Shown piece by piece: positions 26,801-34,760 of a DNA stretch of 64,000 nt (position 1 is its first letter; every line of letters begins with the position of its first letter). Source of the stretch: Pandoraea pulmonicola (GTDB lineage: Bacteria; Pseudomonadota; Gammaproteobacteria; Burkholderiales; Burkholderiaceae). Position numbers and translations under genes: made by a program. Where the stretch lies: the NCBI RefSeq assembly GCF_000815105.2, contig NZ_CP010310.2:186001-250000 (forward strand), read 5' to 3'. The notes under the pieces are model-generated. The model saw only the letters and a program-made list of their open reading frames with translations. It was not told the DNA's origin and searched no databases.

Positions 26801-27047
26801 CGCCGGGGCGGAGCTGCGTCAACCACTCGGGCTGGCGGTCGTCGGCGGATTGCTGTTCTCGCAAGTCATCACGCTCTACATCACGCCGGTGATCTATCTC
26901 TATCTGGATCGCTTCGCGGGCGACGGCCCGCTCGTGCTGCCCGGCGATCGCGCCGCCAACGACAGCCGCGACCGAGACGACAGCTCGCCCGCAGGCGGGC
27001 ACGACGCGACGCGCGAGGAAGGGCGTCACGTCGACCCCGCGCACTGA
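23886..27047 (+). CDS. RND multidrug efflux permease (HAE1, MdtB/MuxB-like)
   Basis: 1053 residues from ATG 23886. The start MNLSELCIRRPVMTILL is typical of HAE1 pumps, with 12 membrane helices and two large periplasmic loops. Proton-relay Asp residues are in TM4 (LAVGLVVDDAIVMLENI). The second-half motif GIVKKNAIMMIDFAL is present. No outer-membrane factor gene follows, so it must use one encoded elsewhere. No regulator is adjacent. The last 35 residues are polar and low in complexity. Confidence 0.93.
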   Translation: MNLSELCIRRPVMTILLCVAAVVAGLIAYGQIPISALPSYNSPVIQVTATLPGASPETMAASVAAPMEKQFSTIAGVAVISSTNTQGTTSIIIEFDSDRDIDAAAVDVQAALFRAQRKLPVEMTTPPSYRKVNPADAPILFLAMNSPSMSLAELDDYAENLVSPTLSTLPGVAQVLIYGQKRFAVRVKARPDALAARKLTLDDVARALASANANSPVGTLDGARQTLTIEANRQMTKADQFANLIIASVNGNPVYLRDVAEVQDSVESVKTGSWVNGERSIVLAVLRQPNANTVATVDQVKASLPRLAEQMPQSIQVKLLNDRSVSIRESIDDVQFTLALTVILVTLVIFLFLRRLAATMIPVMSLPVSLIGTVALMKGMGYSIDNISLLGITLAVGLVVDDAIVMLENIVRHIENGVPPLRAALVGSREMGFTILSISISLVAVFIPIFFMPGVIGLMFHEFAVVVSLAILVSAAVSLTLIPMLCSRYLKHEQDEGLGLRATQWFEDGFVSVQDAYVRSVDWCLAHRKWVMAMAGATFVATGVLFATIPKGFFPSEDIGQVQVTAEGAQDISFSAMSALLRQAGDIIRANPAVGTVIVSANDSNQGRMFINLKPHGERPHMSEVLETLRRDVKQVPGLNVYFNPVQNLQLGGKQSKSRYQYVMQSVKPGEMQLWSDRLMNLMRADPIFRDVTTDAQMKGLQAQLTIDRDKANTLGVAIGDIRSALYSAFGERQVSTIYTPSDSYQVILQATDSDRRDESAFDKIYVRGKGGALVPLSAVATVERKMGPVSVNHQGQLQAVTLSFNLAPGAALGDASRKIVGYQQQLGFPPSIITSWGGDAAAFQKSQSSQVVLLVGALLVIYVLLGVLYESYIHPITILAGLPSAAVGALLTLRIFGMDLSLIAVIGILMLIGIVKKNAIMMIDFALDAQRNGGLTPAEAIRQACALRFRPIMMTTLAALMGALPIALGLGAGAELRQPLGLAVVGGLLFSQVITLYITPVIYLYLDRFAGDGPLVLPGDRAANDSRDRDDSSPAGGHDATREEGRHVDPAH

Positions 27048-27105
27048 GTGCGCCGATACACGCTGAAACGTGTCGACAGGCGCTGACGTACGGTGCCAAA
27101 GCAAG

Positions 27106-27154
27106 TGCGACTGACGCCATAGTTTTGCGACTGAGCAACGAAGTTGGTGCGACT
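27106..27154 (+). repeat. Triple TGCGACT direct repeat at the island edge (possible IS end relic)
   Basis: TGCGACT occurs at 27106-27112, 27126-27132 and 27148-27154, spaced by 20 and 22 bp. It lies in the 200-bp gap between the RND pump and the AT-richer operon. Iterated short repeats are typical of transposase sites in IS21-type ends. No transposase is nearby, so this is a suggestion only. Confidence 0.35.
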
Positions 27155-27248
27155 AACCCATATGCCGAGAATTTGCTCAACCGCGGCGGTACCGCAGCCC
27201 CGATGCCGTAAAACCGGGCAGCACGACACACGAATTGTTCAGGGCCGA

Positions 27249-28658
27249 CTAAATAATCTCCAGGTAACGCTTGAGTTCCCAGTCGGTTACGGAAGTTAGC
27301 GATTGCTCGTACTCCCATTCGCGTGTTGAGCAAAAATGCTCGACGAACGGCTCACCGAGCCACTCACGTGCAATCGAAGACCCTCGCATTCGCTCGACCG
27401 CATCCATTAGCGTGCGAGGGTTACGGTCCAGCATTTCCCGGGAAGCATGGCCGTCAACAAGTGACAAGCCTTCCTCAATACCGGCCATACCACTGGCTAC
27501 GGCTGCAGCAATAGAGAGGTACGGGTTTGCATCGGCACCGGGGCAGCGTGTCTCCAATCTGGTGGATGATGCACCGGCGGGAATCACGCGCAGGCTGGCC
27601 GTTCGGTCGTCGATCCCCCATGTGGCGGTTGTTGGCGCCCAAAATCCGTCGACCAAACGTTTGTAGCTGTTTACGTTTGGCCAGTATAGTGGTCCGAACT
27701 CTCCCATATAGCGCAGTTGCCCTGCCACATAGCTCTCAAGAAGCCGACTCATGCCGTGAGATCGACGGCGATCGTAAAAGACATTGGATGTCCCGTCTAT
27801 CAGACTCTGATGAATATGGCCGGAACAACCGGGCAGTCTAGAATTCCACTTGGCCATGAACGACGGCATGATGCCGAATCGATGCGCAATTTCCTTAACC
27901 CCAGCCTTGAAAAGGACCGCGCGGTCGGCTGTTTCCAGAGCAACGCCGTAGGCGAGAGCCACTTCATACACGCCTGGACCGGTCTCCGTGTGGAGGCCTT
28001 CGATTGGTATCCGAAAGGCGCGCATTTCTGAAAGCAGGGTCTGAATGTACGCGCTATTCGCTTGAGTGCGCAGTAACGAATATCCAAACATTCCTGGCGT
28101 GATAGGTTGGGGGTCCACGCCTTTCTTTTCGTTCCAGGATTGAGGCGTCTCGGAAAAATTGAACCACTCAAATTCCACGCCACAAATCACGGTCAAACCA
28201 GTTTGTTGTGCGCGGTCGAGTACGCGTCGCAATACCTGCCGTGGGCACAGTGGGTGTGCGGTTCCATCTGACTGTAAGAACTCCCCGAGAACGAATGGCA
28301 CCTGATCGTCCCAGGGAACACGACGCAACGTCCTAGAGTCAAGACGGACGCCTGCATCTGGATATCCCTTATGCCCAATATTGCCGTAGGGTGAATCGGC
28401 TACGTCCCAACCGAAAATCACGTTGCAAAAGCCGAGCTTATCGGTAACAGCCGACAGTGCTTTGTCCAAGCTCACATACTTTCCGCGGAGGATGCCATCC
28501 AAGTCTGTGACACCGATCTTGACCGAAGTCACGCTTTCCTGGCTGAGCGACTGCCATGGATTAAGCGCAGCTCTGTCAGAATTTCCGTCGGGTTCACGTA
28601 ACATTATCTTGGACTCTCCCAAACCAGCATAGTGATTCAAAAAATGATCTACAGACAT
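27249..28658 (-). CDS. Glutamine-synthetase-family ligase (PuuA/gamma-glutamyl-amide type)
   Basis: 469 residues. The N-terminal beta-grasp part has TDLDGILRGKYV (51-62), as in gamma-glutamyl-polyamine and -anilide synthetases. The catalytic domain has metal-binding VEFEWF (161-166), ETGPGVYEVAL (225-235), the ATP/ammonia-site GCSGHIHQSL (277-286) and the RLETRCPGADANPYL end motif (367-381). Housekeeping GlnA lacks this N-terminal form. It probably joins Glu, or another carboxylate, to an amine. Last gene of the five-gene operon, 75 bp after the ATP-grasp gene. AT-richer than the core genome. Substrate unknown. Confidence 0.85.
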   Translation of the reverse strand: MSVDHFLNHYAGLGESKIMLREPDGNSDRAALNPWQSLSQESVTSVKIGVTDLDGILRGKYVSLDKALSAVTDKLGFCNVIFGWDVADSPYGNIGHKGYPDAGVRLDSRTLRRVPWDDQVPFVLGEFLQSDGTAHPLCPRQVLRRVLDRAQQTGLTVICGVEFEWFNFSETPQSWNEKKGVDPQPITPGMFGYSLLRTQANSAYIQTLLSEMRAFRIPIEGLHTETGPGVYEVALAYGVALETADRAVLFKAGVKEIAHRFGIMPSFMAKWNSRLPGCSGHIHQSLIDGTSNVFYDRRRSHGMSRLLESYVAGQLRYMGEFGPLYWPNVNSYKRLVDGFWAPTTATWGIDDRTASLRVIPAGASSTRLETRCPGADANPYLSIAAAVASGMAGIEEGLSLVDGHASREMLDRNPRTLMDAVERMRGSSIAREWLGEPFVEHFCSTREWEYEQSLTSVTDWELKRYLEII

Positions 28659-28733
28659 TGATGTTGATCCCGGATATGCGAGAACAACTATTAGGTTATC
28701 GATTTACCCTGTGTGTTGTATTGCGCCTGTAAT

Positions 28734-29990
28734 TTAGTCGGGAGATCGGGCATCAGCTGTCTCTTGAACTTGGGATAACACAACGCACGCAGTCCGCTGG
28801 ATCGCAAAAATGTCGGCATCCAATACGTTGGCATTTGATGCGGCCAACGAACACGTGAGCAAGCTGTCGGCGCTATAACGTGTGGGGGCTACCCATTCGC
28901 CCTTCACACGGTGATAATTGACGCGTTTTAACGATCTATACAGGTTGGCGTCTAGACCCTCATATCCCGAAATGACGCCAGGCACTTCGGAGAGCATCAA
29001 TAGCGATGCACCGTACGCTATTTCCTCGCGGGAGGAAGCGGTGCCTGGTGGCAGGCCAAGCTGAATACGTACATGCTCCTCCACCAGATGGACCCCAAAC
29101 GCGTCATAGATTGCTTCTGCTACGCCGCCACCGACAGGTCGAATCGCAATTTCTCCAAACGTCAGGATTCCATCAGAAAAGAAAAATTCGAAGTGGAATA
29201 CCCCATCGAGCGTGCCAAAGGCCCGTAAGATGGTCGAGAGTAGGTCGCATGCTGCCTTATGGATCGCATCTTTTCTATTGGTGAAGCGCGTTCCTGCCCA
29301 GCGTCGACCGGAAAAATTCAGAGGAGCCACTTCATATCGCCCGAGAGACGAGAACAGGATCTCGCCGTTTCGCACCACCGCGTCCAAATGATGCACGTCG
29401 CCGTTGACGAACTGCTCGACAAGGTATCCGCAACGCCGCGAATTTTGCCATTCAAGAAACGCATCAACATCAGATGGTTTTGATAAAACGGATATTCCTT
29501 GAGCACCATATCCGTCACGAGGTTTGGCTACGAGTTTCCCGTAGCGCGTAAACAATTGTCGTATGCCTTTGTCGTCGACGCCATCGGCAAACGCCGGGAT
29601 CCGGATACCGCATCCATCCAAGGCACGCTTCATTGCCACCTTGTCGCGATACAGCTCTGCCTGCGATACGCTAATGCTCGAAAATCCGAGAGCGTTGCGT
29701 GCCGCTACGACTGGGGAGAGATCCTGCTCAGAAATAGTTAAAACTTGAGATAAAGAATGACGAGACATGATTACGCGCAACAACTGTGTGAGGTAGTCGT
29801 TGCAGTCGCGTAATTCAATCAGATGGAGTTCGGCACACGATTCTAAGGGAGGGAGGCGTGATGTCCGTACGGAATGAATAAAGATGAGCGGTCTTCCTCG
29901 CAGAGGTTCGATAATCTTGCCATCGCGAAGTAGTAAATCATAGTCAACGCGAGCTACGATGGCGATAGGGGATTCATGGTCAATCGTCAA
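28734..29990 (-). CDS. ATP-grasp carboxylate-amine ligase
   Basis: 418 residues from TTG 29990. I chose this start because AGGAG (complement of 29999-30003) lies 8 nt upstream; the frame is open to a TTG at 30017. The ATP-grasp core has DKVAMKRAL (116-124), the glycine-rich loop VAKPRDGYGAQGI (154-166), YLVEQFVNGDVHHLD (189-203) and the metal site GVFHFEFFF...GEIAIRPVGGG (263-289). Enzymes of this type form peptide-like amide bonds via acyl phosphates, as in dipeptide ligases. It overlaps the transporter gene by 11 bp. Confidence 0.8.
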   Translation of the reverse strand: MTIDHESPIAIVARVDYDLLLRDGKIIEPLRGRPLIFIHSVRTSRLPPLESCAELHLIELRDCNDYLTQLLRVIMSRHSLSQVLTISEQDLSPVVAARNALGFSSISVSQAELYRDKVAMKRALDGCGIRIPAFADGVDDKGIRQLFTRYGKLVAKPRDGYGAQGISVLSKPSDVDAFLEWQNSRRCGYLVEQFVNGDVHHLDAVVRNGEILFSSLGRYEVAPLNFSGRRWAGTRFTNRKDAIHKAACDLLSTILRAFGTLDGVFHFEFFFSDGILTFGEIAIRPVGGGVAEAIYDAFGVHLVEEHVRIQLGLPPGTASSREEIAYGASLLMLSEVPGVISGYEGLDANLYRSLKRVNYHRVKGEWVAPTRYSADSLLTCSLAASNANVLDADIFAIQRTACVVLSQVQETADARSPD

Positions 29991-31200
29991 AACGAGCTCT
30001 CCTGAGTGAATACACAAGAAAAATTAAGCCAACAATTGCGTTCACTAACCAAACAATCAAGAAACCTTTCAGTTCCAATAAGTAGGTGTTCATCCCGTTG
30101 GACAAGACAACAGCGAGTGCACCAACCATCGCAACAGCGCCGAACGCAGTGCCAGTAGATCGAGATGAGACGATTCTTGTTGTCATCAAGTCGATCCGGT
30201 TGCCGAGGAGCACCTCACCAACGGTGAATAGGGTCATAGAAAACCCTATCAACATCATCGACGCCGCGGGACTGGTTTGCCAGAAGGCTCCGTCACCTAG
30301 GCTTGATATCGCGCAGCAAAGGAAAAAGCCGACGAAGCTCGCGTAGCCCACCCAAGCCGGCGTTTCGGCGATACGCTTGGAGCAAGTTAGCTGGATCGAA
30401 ACGACAACTACAGTATTGACAAGAAAAGCACCCGCGACAAAGGTGCTTCCGAATCGCTGTTCAAAGTAAAACGGCATCAGGAATTCGAAATGCGAGTAAG
30501 CTGCGAAAAGTCCAAACTGGAGCCACAGTGTGTTCAGGAATGCCCCTGAGCGTAAGTCTCTCCATCGGAAAGATTGACTTCCCAGTCCTAACGGAACTTC
30601 GCTACGACGGAAAAACATAAGTAATCCGACATTAATTGCGTACACCGCGACAATTACCTCGCATGCCAACGTGAAATGGCTCTCCACTAGAAGTGCGCCT
30701 AAAAGCGGACCAACGGCAGCACCTAAGTTGAGAGATACGTTTCGCAGGCCGACGACTCGTGCTAACGCCGACGGGAAATTTCGGAATTGTTCAAATAGCA
30801 GTTTGCGGAGCGCGGGGTGATAAATTGCCGCACCGACTCCATTTAGAAGTGCAGACGCGAGTAGCGTCGTGTGAGTGGGAGTTTTGAGTAATAGAGCAAA
30901 CGCTGAAAGTCGTAAGACCACACCTGCCAGTGCGAGTGGGCGAGCTCCCCACATGTCGGTGAGCATCCCGCCAAGTAATGACGTAGCACGTTGGGCGACC
31001 ACTTTCACCGATACCAACACGCCAGCGAACGCCAATCCATATCCAAGAGTTTTGGCAACGTAGATGGCAAAGTATGGAGTAATGATCGAGCTGCCGAGAC
31101 TGAACAGCAAAATGCTACCCAAATGTACGACAACCCATGGTCGGATGAGCAATCGTCGGTCTGACCGAGAGCTATTTAGAGGCAACTCGAGCTTGCTCAT
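29980..31200 (-). CDS. MFS transporter (probable exporter)
   Basis: 406 residues with 12 predicted helices. The loop 2-3 signature is GGMLTDMWGARPLALAG. Other segments are NGVGAAIYHPALRKLLFEQF and ARVVGLRNVSLNLGAAVGPLLGALL, which fits drug/metabolite antiporters of the MdtH/YjhB-like type. Its position between two ligase genes, with 4-bp and 11-bp overlaps on either side, suggests it exports the pathway product. Confidence 0.85.
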   Translation of the reverse strand: MSKLELPLNSSRSDRRLLIRPWVVVHLGSILLFSLGSSIITPYFAIYVAKTLGYGLAFAGVLVSVKVVAQRATSLLGGMLTDMWGARPLALAGVVLRLSAFALLLKTPTHTTLLASALLNGVGAAIYHPALRKLLFEQFRNFPSALARVVGLRNVSLNLGAAVGPLLGALLVESHFTLACEVIVAVYAINVGLLMFFRRSEVPLGLGSQSFRWRDLRSGAFLNTLWLQFGLFAAYSHFEFLMPFYFEQRFGSTFVAGAFLVNTVVVVSIQLTCSKRIAETPAWVGYASFVGFFLCCAISSLGDGAFWQTSPAASMMLIGFSMTLFTVGEVLLGNRIDLMTTRIVSSRSTGTAFGAVAMVGALAVVLSNGMNTYLLELKGFLIVWLVNAIVGLIFLVYSLRRARFDD

Positions 31201-32519
31201 ATGGCGTCGCTCTCGAAGACCATCCCCGTATAGCTATCGGCCGCATAGCTAAGCACCTTACCTCCGAAAGGGGTTGCTCGCACCATGAGGCCTGCGTAGC
31301 GCGAATCGATGGCGAAAGCGCCGAACACCAGGCCGAAGGTATCAGCGCTAAGTCCGCTATCTGAAGACCATCCGATTAGTGAGCTCGTACTGGCAAAAAT
31401 GCGTTGTTGTAAGACATAGGGAACGTTACTCGCGAGCAGGTCCCGTAGATGGCTTGCCCATTCCGATACTGTGAAGTCCTCGCCGAAAATTACCCCTTTT
31501 CCGCACTCTCCGTTAACCGGTTTAGCAACTAACGAGGATTGAAGTGCTAGTACATCCGCAAGAACTTTTTCCGTTAGAAGTAGAGTTTTCGGAACGTATC
31601 GTCTGATGTCCGCTAGCTCAGATTCTGAATAGCTGCTGACATAGATTGGATCCCAAAGGAGCGCCAGTGTTGCCTTGTTGCTGAAAAGACGTGAATCGAG
31701 CGGCATGCCAATTCCAATATTTCCCTCCTTCGCGCTGTTGATAAGGGGAGAATAAAGTTCCGGATGGCGACATATGTCGCTTGCCCCAAACAATCGGTAG
31801 ACATAATGGATGCGCTTCTTGTTCATATACACGCCATCAGCACGAACTTCGAGATTACCTATCTCGCATACGGTGACGTTCGCTCCGAGCTTTCTGAGAG
31901 ACTGCGCCATCGCTTCGTTCCAATGAGCAAACCTCAAACGGTAATCAAGTGAAGCGACGATTCGAATGTTCAAGATTCCTGAGTCTGAACGGAATTTGTT
32001 CGCCTCGCTTATGACCATGGCGGCCCACAAACGGGCCGTGTCTTTCCGAGTGAACTTTTGTGCGCTGATGTGGGCGGCGACCAAGGGGTGATGTTCAATC
32101 GTTTTCAGCGCCTCATCCAAATGAAAGCCGCCAATAGAACTCCCGATGTTGAACTCAGTGAATTTCCAACCATCGTTTGTCAAGTACGCATCGCTTCTGG
32201 CAAAAGGTGCACAAGAGGTGGAGGGCAGCACTGTCATTGCTGATATATGGTCATCCGAAAATCCACATGCTTTTCCGAAAGCTCGCATGTCTCCGGAAAA
32301 AAGGCGGTCCGGTAACGAGTAAATTAAGTTGATTAGCCGTATTGTTGCCTCCCCCACCTCACTGGCCAAACCGGTGCTTATAGCTATTGGACTCGCGACC
32401 AGCCGCTCTTTGAGCGATACCATTCCTTTCGAAACCTGTTCCGACGCAGCTTCGGAGAAAGCTCGGAAGAATGCCGTCGCGGGTGCGTCGTCAAGGGAGT
32501 AATAGGTTTGCTGACTCAT
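31197..32519 (-). CDS. Circularly permuted ATP-grasp-like ligase (glutathionylspermidine-synthase-like)
   Basis: 440 residues. An R-x-D element (ARSDAY, 107-112) is followed by WKFTEFNIGSSIGG (118-131), which matches the R-x-D and E-x-N pattern of circularly permuted ATP-grasp enzymes. Further marks are SNKATLALLWD (280-290) and VAKPVNGECGKGVIFG (331-346), the ATP loop at the C-terminal side. Known relatives join amines to peptides (glutathionylspermidine) or act in natural-product pathways. Family placement rests on motif order, not a search. Overlaps its neighbours by 4 bp on both sides. Confidence 0.65.
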   Translation of the reverse strand: MSQQTYYSLDDAPATAFFRAFSEAASEQVSKGMVSLKERLVASPIAISTGLASEVGEATIRLINLIYSLPDRLFSGDMRAFGKACGFSDDHISAMTVLPSTSCAPFARSDAYLTNDGWKFTEFNIGSSIGGFHLDEALKTIEHHPLVAAHISAQKFTRKDTARLWAAMVISEANKFRSDSGILNIRIVASLDYRLRFAHWNEAMAQSLRKLGANVTVCEIGNLEVRADGVYMNKKRIHYVYRLFGASDICRHPELYSPLINSAKEGNIGIGMPLDSRLFSNKATLALLWDPIYVSSYSESELADIRRYVPKTLLLTEKVLADVLALQSSLVAKPVNGECGKGVIFGEDFTVSEWASHLRDLLASNVPYVLQQRIFASTSSLIGWSSDSGLSADTFGLVFGAFAIDSRYAGLMVRATPFGGKVLSYAADSYTGMVFESDAI

Positions 32520-33625
32520 GACGTTATTGTTCCTTCGTCGAACCGGAAGTGATCCAGCGTATCTTCGAGCAAATCCAAGAAATTCAACGTAAGCCAGAAC
32601 GCTTCCGTAGTAGGTGTCCAGCGTGAGTACTTGAGATTCCCTGACAAACTACAGATCAAATATGTAATGAACCGGACGCGCTGCGCCTGCGTAGTTTTTT
32701 GCCGTGTGTAGGTATCGAGAATTCTGACCGAATTTGCTATCAAAGCGCGCCTAGCTTTCACGCTTTCCAGTAAGTCCCGCGGTGCCAGGAGTATTAGGTT
32801 GGCGAAAATTGAGTGCACCATACAAGCCAAGTCATACAGCGGATCGAAGTACCCTGGATCGGGGTTCGGGGTGTCGTCCCACGTAACGCGCGGATCGATA
32901 AATATTGGAGTTGCTTTTTCCATGATGATGTTGCCTAGATGAGGGTCTCCATGGACGAGCGCTTCCACATCAGGAAGAAACGCTGAATAGCGTTCCAAGA
33001 CTCGCGACATTGCGGTTCTGAGCGAGCAGCTTTGCGTACGACCTGTTGCCCACGCAGTGACGTAATAGGTTTCAATATCGAGGTCTGTGAAGGCTGCCAA
33101 ATTCTTCGTCGTCAGATCGGATCGAAGAATTTTTGAAAGTCGTTTAGCGACAATGGCGTCGTGATAGCTCGACGCATACCGGCGCTGTGTTGCGAGGTGA
33201 AGTTGCCGCAGCGCTAACAGGCACGGTGCAACTAATTGGAAATGGCCAATGCCGGTGACGTCGATCACCGAATCACGTAATTGCCGCTCCAACGTTTTTC
33301 CCGGAGCGAATTCAGTGGCGTAGATGCCCCTATCTGCCTCGAAATAGACGACGGGGGGACAAATGCCGGGGAGTGCGGCATTCATTCGTTTTATATGCGC
33401 AACTTCCTCTGCAGCAAGGCGAGAACGGATTGCTTTTACCACCACGCTGCAATATGCGTCGACCTTCACGACGGTCGTGGCTTCCGCGCCACCGCAAAGT
33501 GTTTCAAGCCTTAGCCTGCAGAGCGATGGGAGTTTTTCGCGGACGGTGAATAAGAGGTGCGACTCCATCAAAACACGCTCCGTTGTCTTGATACGTTCAG
33601 GCAATGTTGACGGGGAGTCTCCCAT
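32516..33625 (-). CDS. Aminoglycoside-phosphotransferase-fold kinase
   Basis: 369 residues from ATG 33625, with GGGGAG a few bases upstream. The N-lobe includes VVVKAIRSR (Lys64 as ATP lysine). The Brenner motif LVHGDPHLGNIIME (223-236) and metal-binding IFIDPR (241-246, Asp244) are intact, so it should be active. Such kinases phosphorylate antibiotics or small metabolites. As first gene of the ligase operon it may prime a substrate or protect the producer. An alternative ATG is at codon 20. Confidence 0.85.
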   Translation of the reverse strand: MGDSPSTLPERIKTTERVLMESHLLFTVREKLPSLCRLRLETLCGGAEATTVVKVDAYCSVVVKAIRSRLAAEEVAHIKRMNAALPGICPPVVYFEADRGIYATEFAPGKTLERQLRDSVIDVTGIGHFQLVAPCLLALRQLHLATQRRYASSYHDAIVAKRLSKILRSDLTTKNLAAFTDLDIETYYVTAWATGRTQSCSLRTAMSRVLERYSAFLPDVEALVHGDPHLGNIIMEKATPIFIDPRVTWDDTPNPDPGYFDPLYDLACMVHSIFANLILLAPRDLLESVKARRALIANSVRILDTYTRQKTTQAQRVRFITYLICSLSGNLKYSRWTPTTEAFWLTLNFLDLLEDTLDHFRFDEGTITS

Positions 33626-33740
33626 TTACTGCTCCCCAAAAATTAGCAAAAGTGGAGGGACAGGGAGATGAATTCGACAGTGACTTCCGACATGCCTGGG
33701 CGTTGGAGTCGTTTGCCGAATGGTGAACGTTGGGAAGGAG

Positions 33741-33881
33741 ATGGCGCGGCTTAAGGTTGGCACGGAAGGCTCGATTCTTGAAGAATTTGACTTTCAGAAT
33801 CTAGTCGAACTGGGAAAAAAAGATATGGGATGGCTCCGAATTTCCTGTGAAATTTTAGAGGAATACGAACTATTGCGTTGA
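33741..33881 (+). CDS. Candidate small ORF, 46 residues, unknown
   Basis: ATG 33741 to TGA 33881, divergent from the ligase operon; an in-frame GTG at 33723 would add six residues. AAGGAG directly abuts the ATG, which is too close to be a normal ribosome site, while the GTG has none obvious. The peptide is acidic with EEFDF and EEYELLR near the C terminus. It overlaps an opposite-strand remnant, so at most one is real. Confidence 0.25.
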   Translation: MARLKVGTEGSILEEFDFQNLVELGKKDMGWLRISCEILEEYELLR

Positions 33882-34009
33882 TATTGAATGCCTGCCCAAT
33901 TGTCGAACACGTCGTGGACATCAATAAAGTTCGCGGGATTAGACCACCACACTTTGCCGTCGCAGCATTTCCCCAAGTACTCCCATGCGTCAGGATGGCA
34001 TCCCCACTT
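33794..34009 (-). pseudogene. Possible C-terminal protein remnant
   Basis: 71 codons open on the minus strand between stops, with the only ATG at 33976. The residues are rich in Trp, Cys, Asp and Asn (HPDAWEYLGKCCDGKVWW, DVHDVFDNWAG), which looks like real protein rather than noise. No start, ribosome site or family is evident. It may be the tail of a lost toxin or surface protein; this is a guess. Confidence 0.3.
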
Positions 34010-34760
34010 TCAGTACAGAAGACGTTGGGTTACGCAGCTCGCGAGGAAAATCCGGAGGCGTGACAGCAATAGGAACTGTCCAATTACAGTGCACGGGAGT
34101 TGCATTTTTGGGGTTCGTGAGGTTTTGCTGGCGATGAGCGAACCCAGTCGCGAGTTGGTGCATAGCCTATGCGGGAAACGCACTACTTTGGCGTGGCCGT
34201 AGGGCAGTCGCGACAACTTTGAGGCGTGTACATCGTGACGTTTGGCGCTATCGGCGATAGGTCATTGATTTATGTAGTCCTCAGTCGTATATACCCCGTC
34301 CCCTTACGGCTGACGCAAATCCCGCCCCCCGGCGCGGCATGCGTTCAATATGCCTTTCTCTGCGTCGGTACGCGATCCTCGCGGCCATGCCGCATGGCTT
34401 GTGAATCGGCTGATTCCATCCGCGGACGCCCAATTTTTCAAGTCCTCGGTCTGCGTCTAGTCTCCGTCTGAATTTCTCCTTCGCAACGCAGAAGACGTTC
34501 CATCCCCAGGGCTCCCGGCCCGCATCGTTCGACGGGGAATCTCCGGTGTTTTTTGGGTTATGAGTACGCGTCCCCGACTATCGGAAATGGCGCGCGTATG
34601 GGCCATTTCTTGCCCACGGGTTATGTCGATTTGCGAAAGAGGCGTGCCGCACGCAACAACCGCCGCTCGCCCATTCGGGCATAAATCGCCCCTGTCGCCG
34701 TAGACGAAGTCTCTCGAATCGCGGTGTCATTTCTCTCAACTCCACAATCGGAAAACAGAC

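Follow-up and report, generated by a model that had tools for sequence, protein, structure and literature searches.

The window analyzed here, 64,000 nucleotides of Pandoraea pulmonicola DNA corresponding to positions 186001-250000 of C1, the single contig of a genome of 5,867,621 bases, carries a five-gene block that on balance is probably a horizontally acquired biosynthetic operon, independent of nonribosomal peptide synthetases (NRPSs), for glutamate-ethanolamine ligation, extension, phosphorylation, and export. In the order of steps that we infer, a glutamine synthetase (GS)-like enzyme would activate glutamate (or a close analogue) at its gamma-carboxyl and couple it to ethanolamine, giving gamma-glutamyl-ethanolamide; a linear ATP-grasp ligase (AG) and a circularly permuted (cp) ATP-grasp ligase (CP) would, judging from their folds and residues, extend this amide with further acid or amino-acid pieces; an APH-type kinase would transfer phosphate to a hydroxyl, for which that left free on the ethanolamide is a plausible candidate; and a major facilitator superfamily (MFS) protein would export the product. 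The glutamate-ethanolamine step would have been captured from catabolism.

An earlier sequence-only reading of this DNA had described five minus-strand open reading frames (ORFs), and their coordinates, the overlaps of 4, 4, and 11 bp between adjacent genes, and the one 75-bp gap were all confirmed (Table 1). The 11-bp overlap assumes a TTG start for AG at 29990, preceded by an AGGAG box, and the GS-like gene has an alternative start at codon 19 (28604) that fits its homologues better and gives a gap of 129 bp. The protein families named in that reading also stood. Four were above the Pfam cut-offs (GS, PF00120, 3.8e-87; ATP-grasp, PF02222, 7.4e-08; MFS_1, 1.1e-27; APH, PF01636, 6.1e-07), and CP, which matched PF14403 below threshold (9.2e-07; 28.6 bits for a cut-off of 32), was assigned from its structure model. 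Consistent with the claim that no NRPS, polyketide synthase (PKS), or ribosomal precursor system is encoded, Pfam detected no NRPS, PKS, or ribosomally synthesized and post-translationally modified peptide families in a search that covered only the five operon proteins.

To assign the GS-like enzyme, its residues were compared with those of known enzymes at the tested positions (E. coli/Salmonella numbering). The metal, phosphate, and arginine (glutamate-side) residues were kept, Asn264 was replaced by Pro and Glu327 by Trp, and Gly aligned at Asp50, near which the alignment is uncertain. This pattern departs from that of ammonia-using type I GS and agrees with that of amine-glutamylating GS-like enzymes of the GlnA4/PauA type, in which the metal and phosphate residues are kept and a non-acidic residue stands at position 327. 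Trp occupied this position in 21 of the 23 sequences of our tree, the window protein included, with Tyr in PuuA and Glu in GlnA. An ordinary glutamine synthetase was rejected on the basis of the replaced ammonium-site Glu327 and the presence in the genome of a second PF00120 gene with a stronger match. The best solved relative of the GS-like enzyme was 5dm3 (5.5e-68), which we take to be the Chromohalobacter salexigens enzyme. According to the published work, cited throughout from excerpts of the papers, D50 and E327 are likewise lost in GlnA4 and PauA7, the latter having Trp (PMC6529630), and gamma-glutamylation of ethanolamine, known for GlnA4 of Streptomyces coelicolor and proposed for C. 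salexigens, likewise uses a GS-like enzyme without the ammonium-site Glu (PMC6529630, PMC9397018).

The genomic context of related GS genes points to the amine. The GS was found in 2 of 100 genomes of the family at 1e-120, both of them operon carriers, and in 6 of 150 genomes of the order at 1e-140, its own included. At the five other loci from the order (gene calls from an ORF script, with Pfam run, as for the other clusters described below, on selected neighbors only), the GS was 57-62% identical to that of the window, and an iron-containing alcohol dehydrogenase (Fe-ADH) gene adjoined it in four cases and lay one ORF away in the fifth; aldehyde dehydrogenase genes were present around four of the five, and PuuD-like hydrolase and PuuP-like permease genes around two each. 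Table 2 of PMC9397018 gives PF00120, PF00465, and PF00171 for the gamma-glutamylation-based use of ethanolamine in C. salexigens; the PF00120-PF00465 layout is shared by all of these Burkholderiales loci and PF00171 by four of the five. Given an alcohol dehydrogenase that would act after glutamylation, this context suggests that the amine bears a hydroxyl. Ethanolamine is proposed as the GS substrate because two independent contexts converge on it, namely the Fe-ADH layout of the relatives and the decarboxylase of a second operon, described below. The proposal of the sequence-only reading was thus upheld in part, as judged from sequence: the residues and context of the GS support its gamma-glutamyl-amine step, and the gene set appears biosynthetic rather than catabolic; the self-protection by the kinase and the MFS export that it also proposed are putative. 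Three of 18 plasmid records with a related GS were also read. Two of these (L087 and L088) had dehydrogenase or oxidase and hydrolase partners, and the third (L089) had an aminotransferase and transporters. The Rhizobium leguminosarum Vaf10 plasmid (L087:96-9744) encodes the related GS with a GMC oxidoreductase, an aldehyde dehydrogenase, a gamma-glutamyl hydrolase, a desaturase, and a pyridoxal phosphate (PLP) transferase, presumably a mix of amine-catabolic and rhizobitoxine-like genes.

All five genes were found in the same order in one further genome, that of Burkholderia sp. L27(2015) (locus L007), at 46-67% identity and at an unrelated site with different neighbors; co-occurrence of this kind was what the sequence-only reading had proposed to look for. 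The L27 operon has one extra gene, for a PLP decarboxylase, between AG and GS at the position of the sole intergenic gap of the window operon. This gene shares 4 bp with AG, and only 2 bp separate its end from the start of GS. The nearest solved relatives of the decarboxylase were serine decarboxylases (1.9e-83), followed by histidine decarboxylases (5.9e-65), and it has the residues of a serine decarboxylase, with the specificity Tyr in YPYNL (20-24), the PLP lysine K225, and the catalytic Y252, including equivalents of AtSerDC Tyr111 and Tyr341. In the plant enzymes, the first Tyr site decides between serine and alanine and the second Tyr is essential (PMC11407765). In L27, the putative serine decarboxylase of the operon would provide ethanolamine, whereas in the window strain ethanolamine would come from phospholipid turnover or uptake. 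The lack of this gene in the window appears tolerable because the E-64 study found the decarboxylase that forms the amine dispensable in a heterologous host, the amines being primary metabolites (PMC12568646). A decayed decarboxylase in the 75-bp gap was rejected, as the only matches were of 8-9 bases, at chance level, and a scan of viral contigs yielded no relative of the enzyme. A serine-type decarboxylase (YPYNL) is also encoded on a Rhizobium sp. CB3090 plasmid (L090:6938-12268), followed by a desaturase, a Cys/Met-metabolism PLP enzyme, and a gamma-glutamyl hydrolase, a set that we take to be reminiscent of rhizobitoxine or aminoethoxyvinylglycine genes.

The operon lies in an insert of ∼7.3 kb. 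The G+C content was 51.9% for 27048-34356 compared with 65.7% and 65.5% in the remaining window on either side, as expected from the earlier description of the genes as AT-richer than the core. Among the congeners read, the nearest is 92% identical in the left flank, and its matches to the two flanks lie only 84 bp apart; the insert was absent at all 12 congener loci read (out of 23 congeners matching the entire left-flank query), with flank matches 84 to 657 bp apart. No shared words of 9 to 12 bases were found between the border regions 26951-27300 and 34251-34620. The five-gene block is thus an insertion, probably acquired horizontally. CP was found in only one of 32 genomes of the genus, the window's own. 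In the family, 202 of 398 genomes gave a match at E ≤ 0.001; when only matches over model positions 1-439 with E < 1e-200 were counted as members, CP was present end to end in two of the 398, namely the window's own genome and that of the L27 locus (G047), and the next-best match was partial (1.7e-14). Wider samples at 1e-15 gave 3 of 399 genomes for the order and 2 of 369 for the class, the window genome being included in both and the other matches being distant. A protein database contained at least seven CP relatives (7999 candidates sharing the most words were scored). For the metagenome proteins P0003 (CP) and P0131 (APH), the longest contig recorded was 14,725 bases in both cases, which suggests that the two may be linked. 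In the GS tree, the window protein, its L27 counterpart, and the metagenome proteins P0009 and P0010 formed an operon clade with a support of 0.999.

The structure model of CP (predicted local distance difference test score (pLDDT) 84.4; predicted template modeling score 0.84) matched glutathione-synthetase/GspS/YgiC-type folds over its whole length. Residues R108, D110, E122, and N124 aligned with R316, D318, E330, and N332 of E. coli Gss and were invariant in eight sequences; the R-x-D and E-x-N residues are those mutated in Cp1B (PMC12568646). On this model, CP is a ligase of the GspS/YgiC type whose catalytic residues are intact. E. coli GspS, YgiC, and YjfC share its fold and catalytic motif at ∼10-14% sequence identity in structural alignment. 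The nearest solved protein to AG was the L-amino-acid ligase RizA (4wd3, 3.8e-13, residues 56-325). Inactivating changes, which the sequence-only reading had named as a possible refutation, were not seen at the checked catalytic residues of GS and CP, apart from the GS ammonium site and Asn264, and AG aligns with RizA. The MFS transporter resembled MdtH-type efflux models weakly, far under the cut-off. An MFS-AG pair (38% and 36% identity) occurs on Vibrio tubiashii and V. europaeus plasmids together with a second ATP-grasp protein, a GHMP kinase, an aminotransferase, and a GCS2 protein. Distant CP genes also have ligase neighbors: that of G956 lies alongside MFS, PALP, OCD, haem-oxygenase-like, and ATP-grasp proteins, and that of G545 alongside three ATP-grasp proteins, a class-V aminotransferase, and an MFS protein. 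Rows of this kind were read at L049:1411-8825 (cp-ATP-grasp, MFS, PALP, OCD, haem-oxygenase-like, and ATP-grasp genes), where the PALP-OCD pair presumably recalls 2,3-diaminopropionate synthesis, and at L050:811-9033 in another Burkholderiales genome (three ATP-grasp genes, a class-V aminotransferase, MFS, and cp-ATP-grasp). Relatives of both ATP-grasp types were seen in Streptomyces sp. NBC_01237 (L009:5072-12187) near an ORF resembling, by eye, a B12-binding mutase subunit.

The kinase had six matches at 1e-5, its own included, in a database of 5.8 billion proteins (all 4691 candidates scored). Its structure model (pLDDT 74.7) fell among metabolite and antibiotic kinases alike in the fold search. 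Two Agrobacterium plasmids and Vibrio sp. St2 encode more distant relatives (26-31% identity), which all have the IDPRxxWD motif and sit directly before a linear ATP-grasp gene; the window kinase sits directly before CP. The Agrobacterium clusters (L091:5586-12032 and L092:5565-12011) also encode an N-hydroxylating monooxygenase, a peroxiredoxin, a dipeptide epimerase, and an MFS protein, with a gamma-glutamyl hydrolase family gene beside them, in what is apparently a small-peptide pathway.

Several observations weigh against ethanolamine ligation as proposed. The operon GS clade stands beside the Fe-ADH-linked group with a support of just 0.65, and the operon enzyme may have changed its substrate. 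The Fe-ADH argument would also suit other amines that carry a hydroxyl. The NCBIfam histidine decarboxylase model PRK02769 accepts the L27 enzyme (358.5 bits for a cut-off of 305), so that the profile leaves the decarboxylase substrate unsettled. The window genome has neither a homologue of this decarboxylase nor any PF00282 protein, which was found in 8 of 14 control genomes, and only two complete operons were read. The foremost alternative is a pathway of the same biosynthetic type that uses histamine, serinol or some other amino alcohol, or a polyamine; we consider it unlikely, although it is the strongest contender. The NCBIfam call and the missing decarboxylase both fit it, as does the use of monoamines and polyamines by PauA7, which also has Trp in place of Glu327 (PMC6529630), whereas the L27 decarboxylase has the serine-type Tyr at a site occupied by Glu in the Vibrio anguillarum pJM1 enzyme annotated as a histidine decarboxylase, alcohol dehydrogenase genes lie beside the related GS genes, and those GS relatives are just 26-31% identical to PuuA.

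It is improbable that the glutamyl amide is a transient protecting group, removed before export to leave the amine with the pieces added by the ATP-grasp ligases. Gamma-glutamyl hydrolase family genes in the GS-bearing Rhizobium plasmid cluster and beside the Agrobacterium kinase/ATP-grasp cluster would suit such a scheme, but neither the window operon nor its L27 counterpart carries one, the comparison being confined to the operons. Slightly less probable still is that the operon serves to break down or detoxify an amine, as might be supposed from the catabolic sets in which related GS genes sit. By Pfam, none of the five operon proteins is a dehydrogenase, oxidase, aminotransferase, or hydrolase, and neither Fe-ADH nor another alcohol dehydrogenase nor an aldehyde dehydrogenase is encoded; in this the operon differs from the ethanolamine gamma-glutamylation operons as excerpted, having in their place genes for the two ATP-grasp ligases, the kinase, and the MFS transporter. 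Amine catabolism, a match to which the sequence-only reading had regarded as refuting its proposal, was rejected on this basis, the catabolic partners that flank related GS genes not being among the five. The lack of a dehydrogenase and hydrolase argues that the amide is retained. A chance gathering of unrelated genes or a decaying remnant, suggested by the rarity of the operon (2 of 398 family genomes) and the absence from the window of the relative's decarboxylase, is very improbable given overlapping open frames, intact residues, and the identical gene order in L27, on which a chance neighborhood was rejected.

The proposed biosynthesis from gamma-glutamyl-ethanolamide was also compared with known systems. 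The pathways of rhizocticin and other products of L-amino-acid ligases use a linear ATP-grasp ligase related to AG (RizA, 4wd3); they are not known to have a GS or cp-ATP-grasp partner. ATP-grasp, GS-like, and acetyltransferase-like amidoligases were reportedly surveyed in 2009. In the E-64 pathway of Aspergillus, the second ligase belongs to the adenylating ANL family rather than being a GS, and the four-gene cluster includes an epoxidase with no kinase described in the excerpted text (PMC12568646). Theanine formation in tea likewise draws its amine for a glutamate-amine ligase from a serine/alanine-type decarboxylase, but the amine is ethylamine, the enzymes are from a plant, and the excerpt describes no further ligases or kinase (PMC11407765). 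The sequence-only reading had recognized no described pathway with this gene set, and our searches of the open-access PMC literature, judged by titles and the opening lines of abstracts, gave no description of it. We advance tentatively, as a possibility well short of an even chance, that the exported product, made without an NRPS, belongs to a new class of natural products assembled on gamma-glutamyl-ethanolamide, the ethanolamide hydroxyl being phosphorylated by a dedicated APH-type kinase; that a transferable operon arose around the captured first enzyme of ethanolamine catabolism; and that IDPRxxWD kinases mark a wider kinase-plus-ATP-grasp family in Burkholderiaceae, Agrobacterium, and Vibrio. 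If so, a nitrogen-scavenging enzyme would be seen turning into a step of a secondary-metabolite pathway. The proposal gives an otherwise anonymous set of ligases a concrete, testable substrate, and the association between ATP-grasp genes and kinases of this subfamily offers a way to find further clusters of ATP-grasp and GS-like ligases, which are readily overlooked when NRPS and PKS genes are lacking.

Table 1. Coordinates of the operon genes, the intergenic gap, and the insert in the window.
Feature	Position	Strand	Basis
GS-like enzyme, predicted gamma-glutamyl-ethanolamide synthetase	27249..28658	minus	PF00120, residues, tree, context of relatives
Intergenic gap, 75 bp	28659..28733		Same junction occupied by the decarboxylase gene in Burkholderia sp. 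L27
Linear ATP-grasp ligase (AG), L-amino-acid-ligase-like, TTG start	28734..29990	minus	PF02222; RizA 4wd3
MFS transporter, predicted exporter	29980..31200	minus	MFS_1
cp-ATP-grasp ligase (CP), GspS/YgiC-type	31197..32519	minus	Structure model, fold matches, catalytic residues
APH-type kinase, IDPRxxWD motif, first gene of the operon	32516..33625	minus	PF01636, relatives, model
Insert missing from the closest congener read	27048..34356		Flank comparison, G+C step

Upstream of the operon and divergent from it, the insert contains a 53-codon ORF (33720-33881, plus strand) whose 53-residue product had no significant match in the plasmids or, the window's own DNA aside, in the collected loci. A consensus promoter scan upstream of the operon gave sites no more numerous than in shuffled sequence. 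The ∼0.7 kb of the insert lying 5′ of the operon (33626-34356) is without a long convincing gene in the ORF list, and the operon promoter may lie within it.

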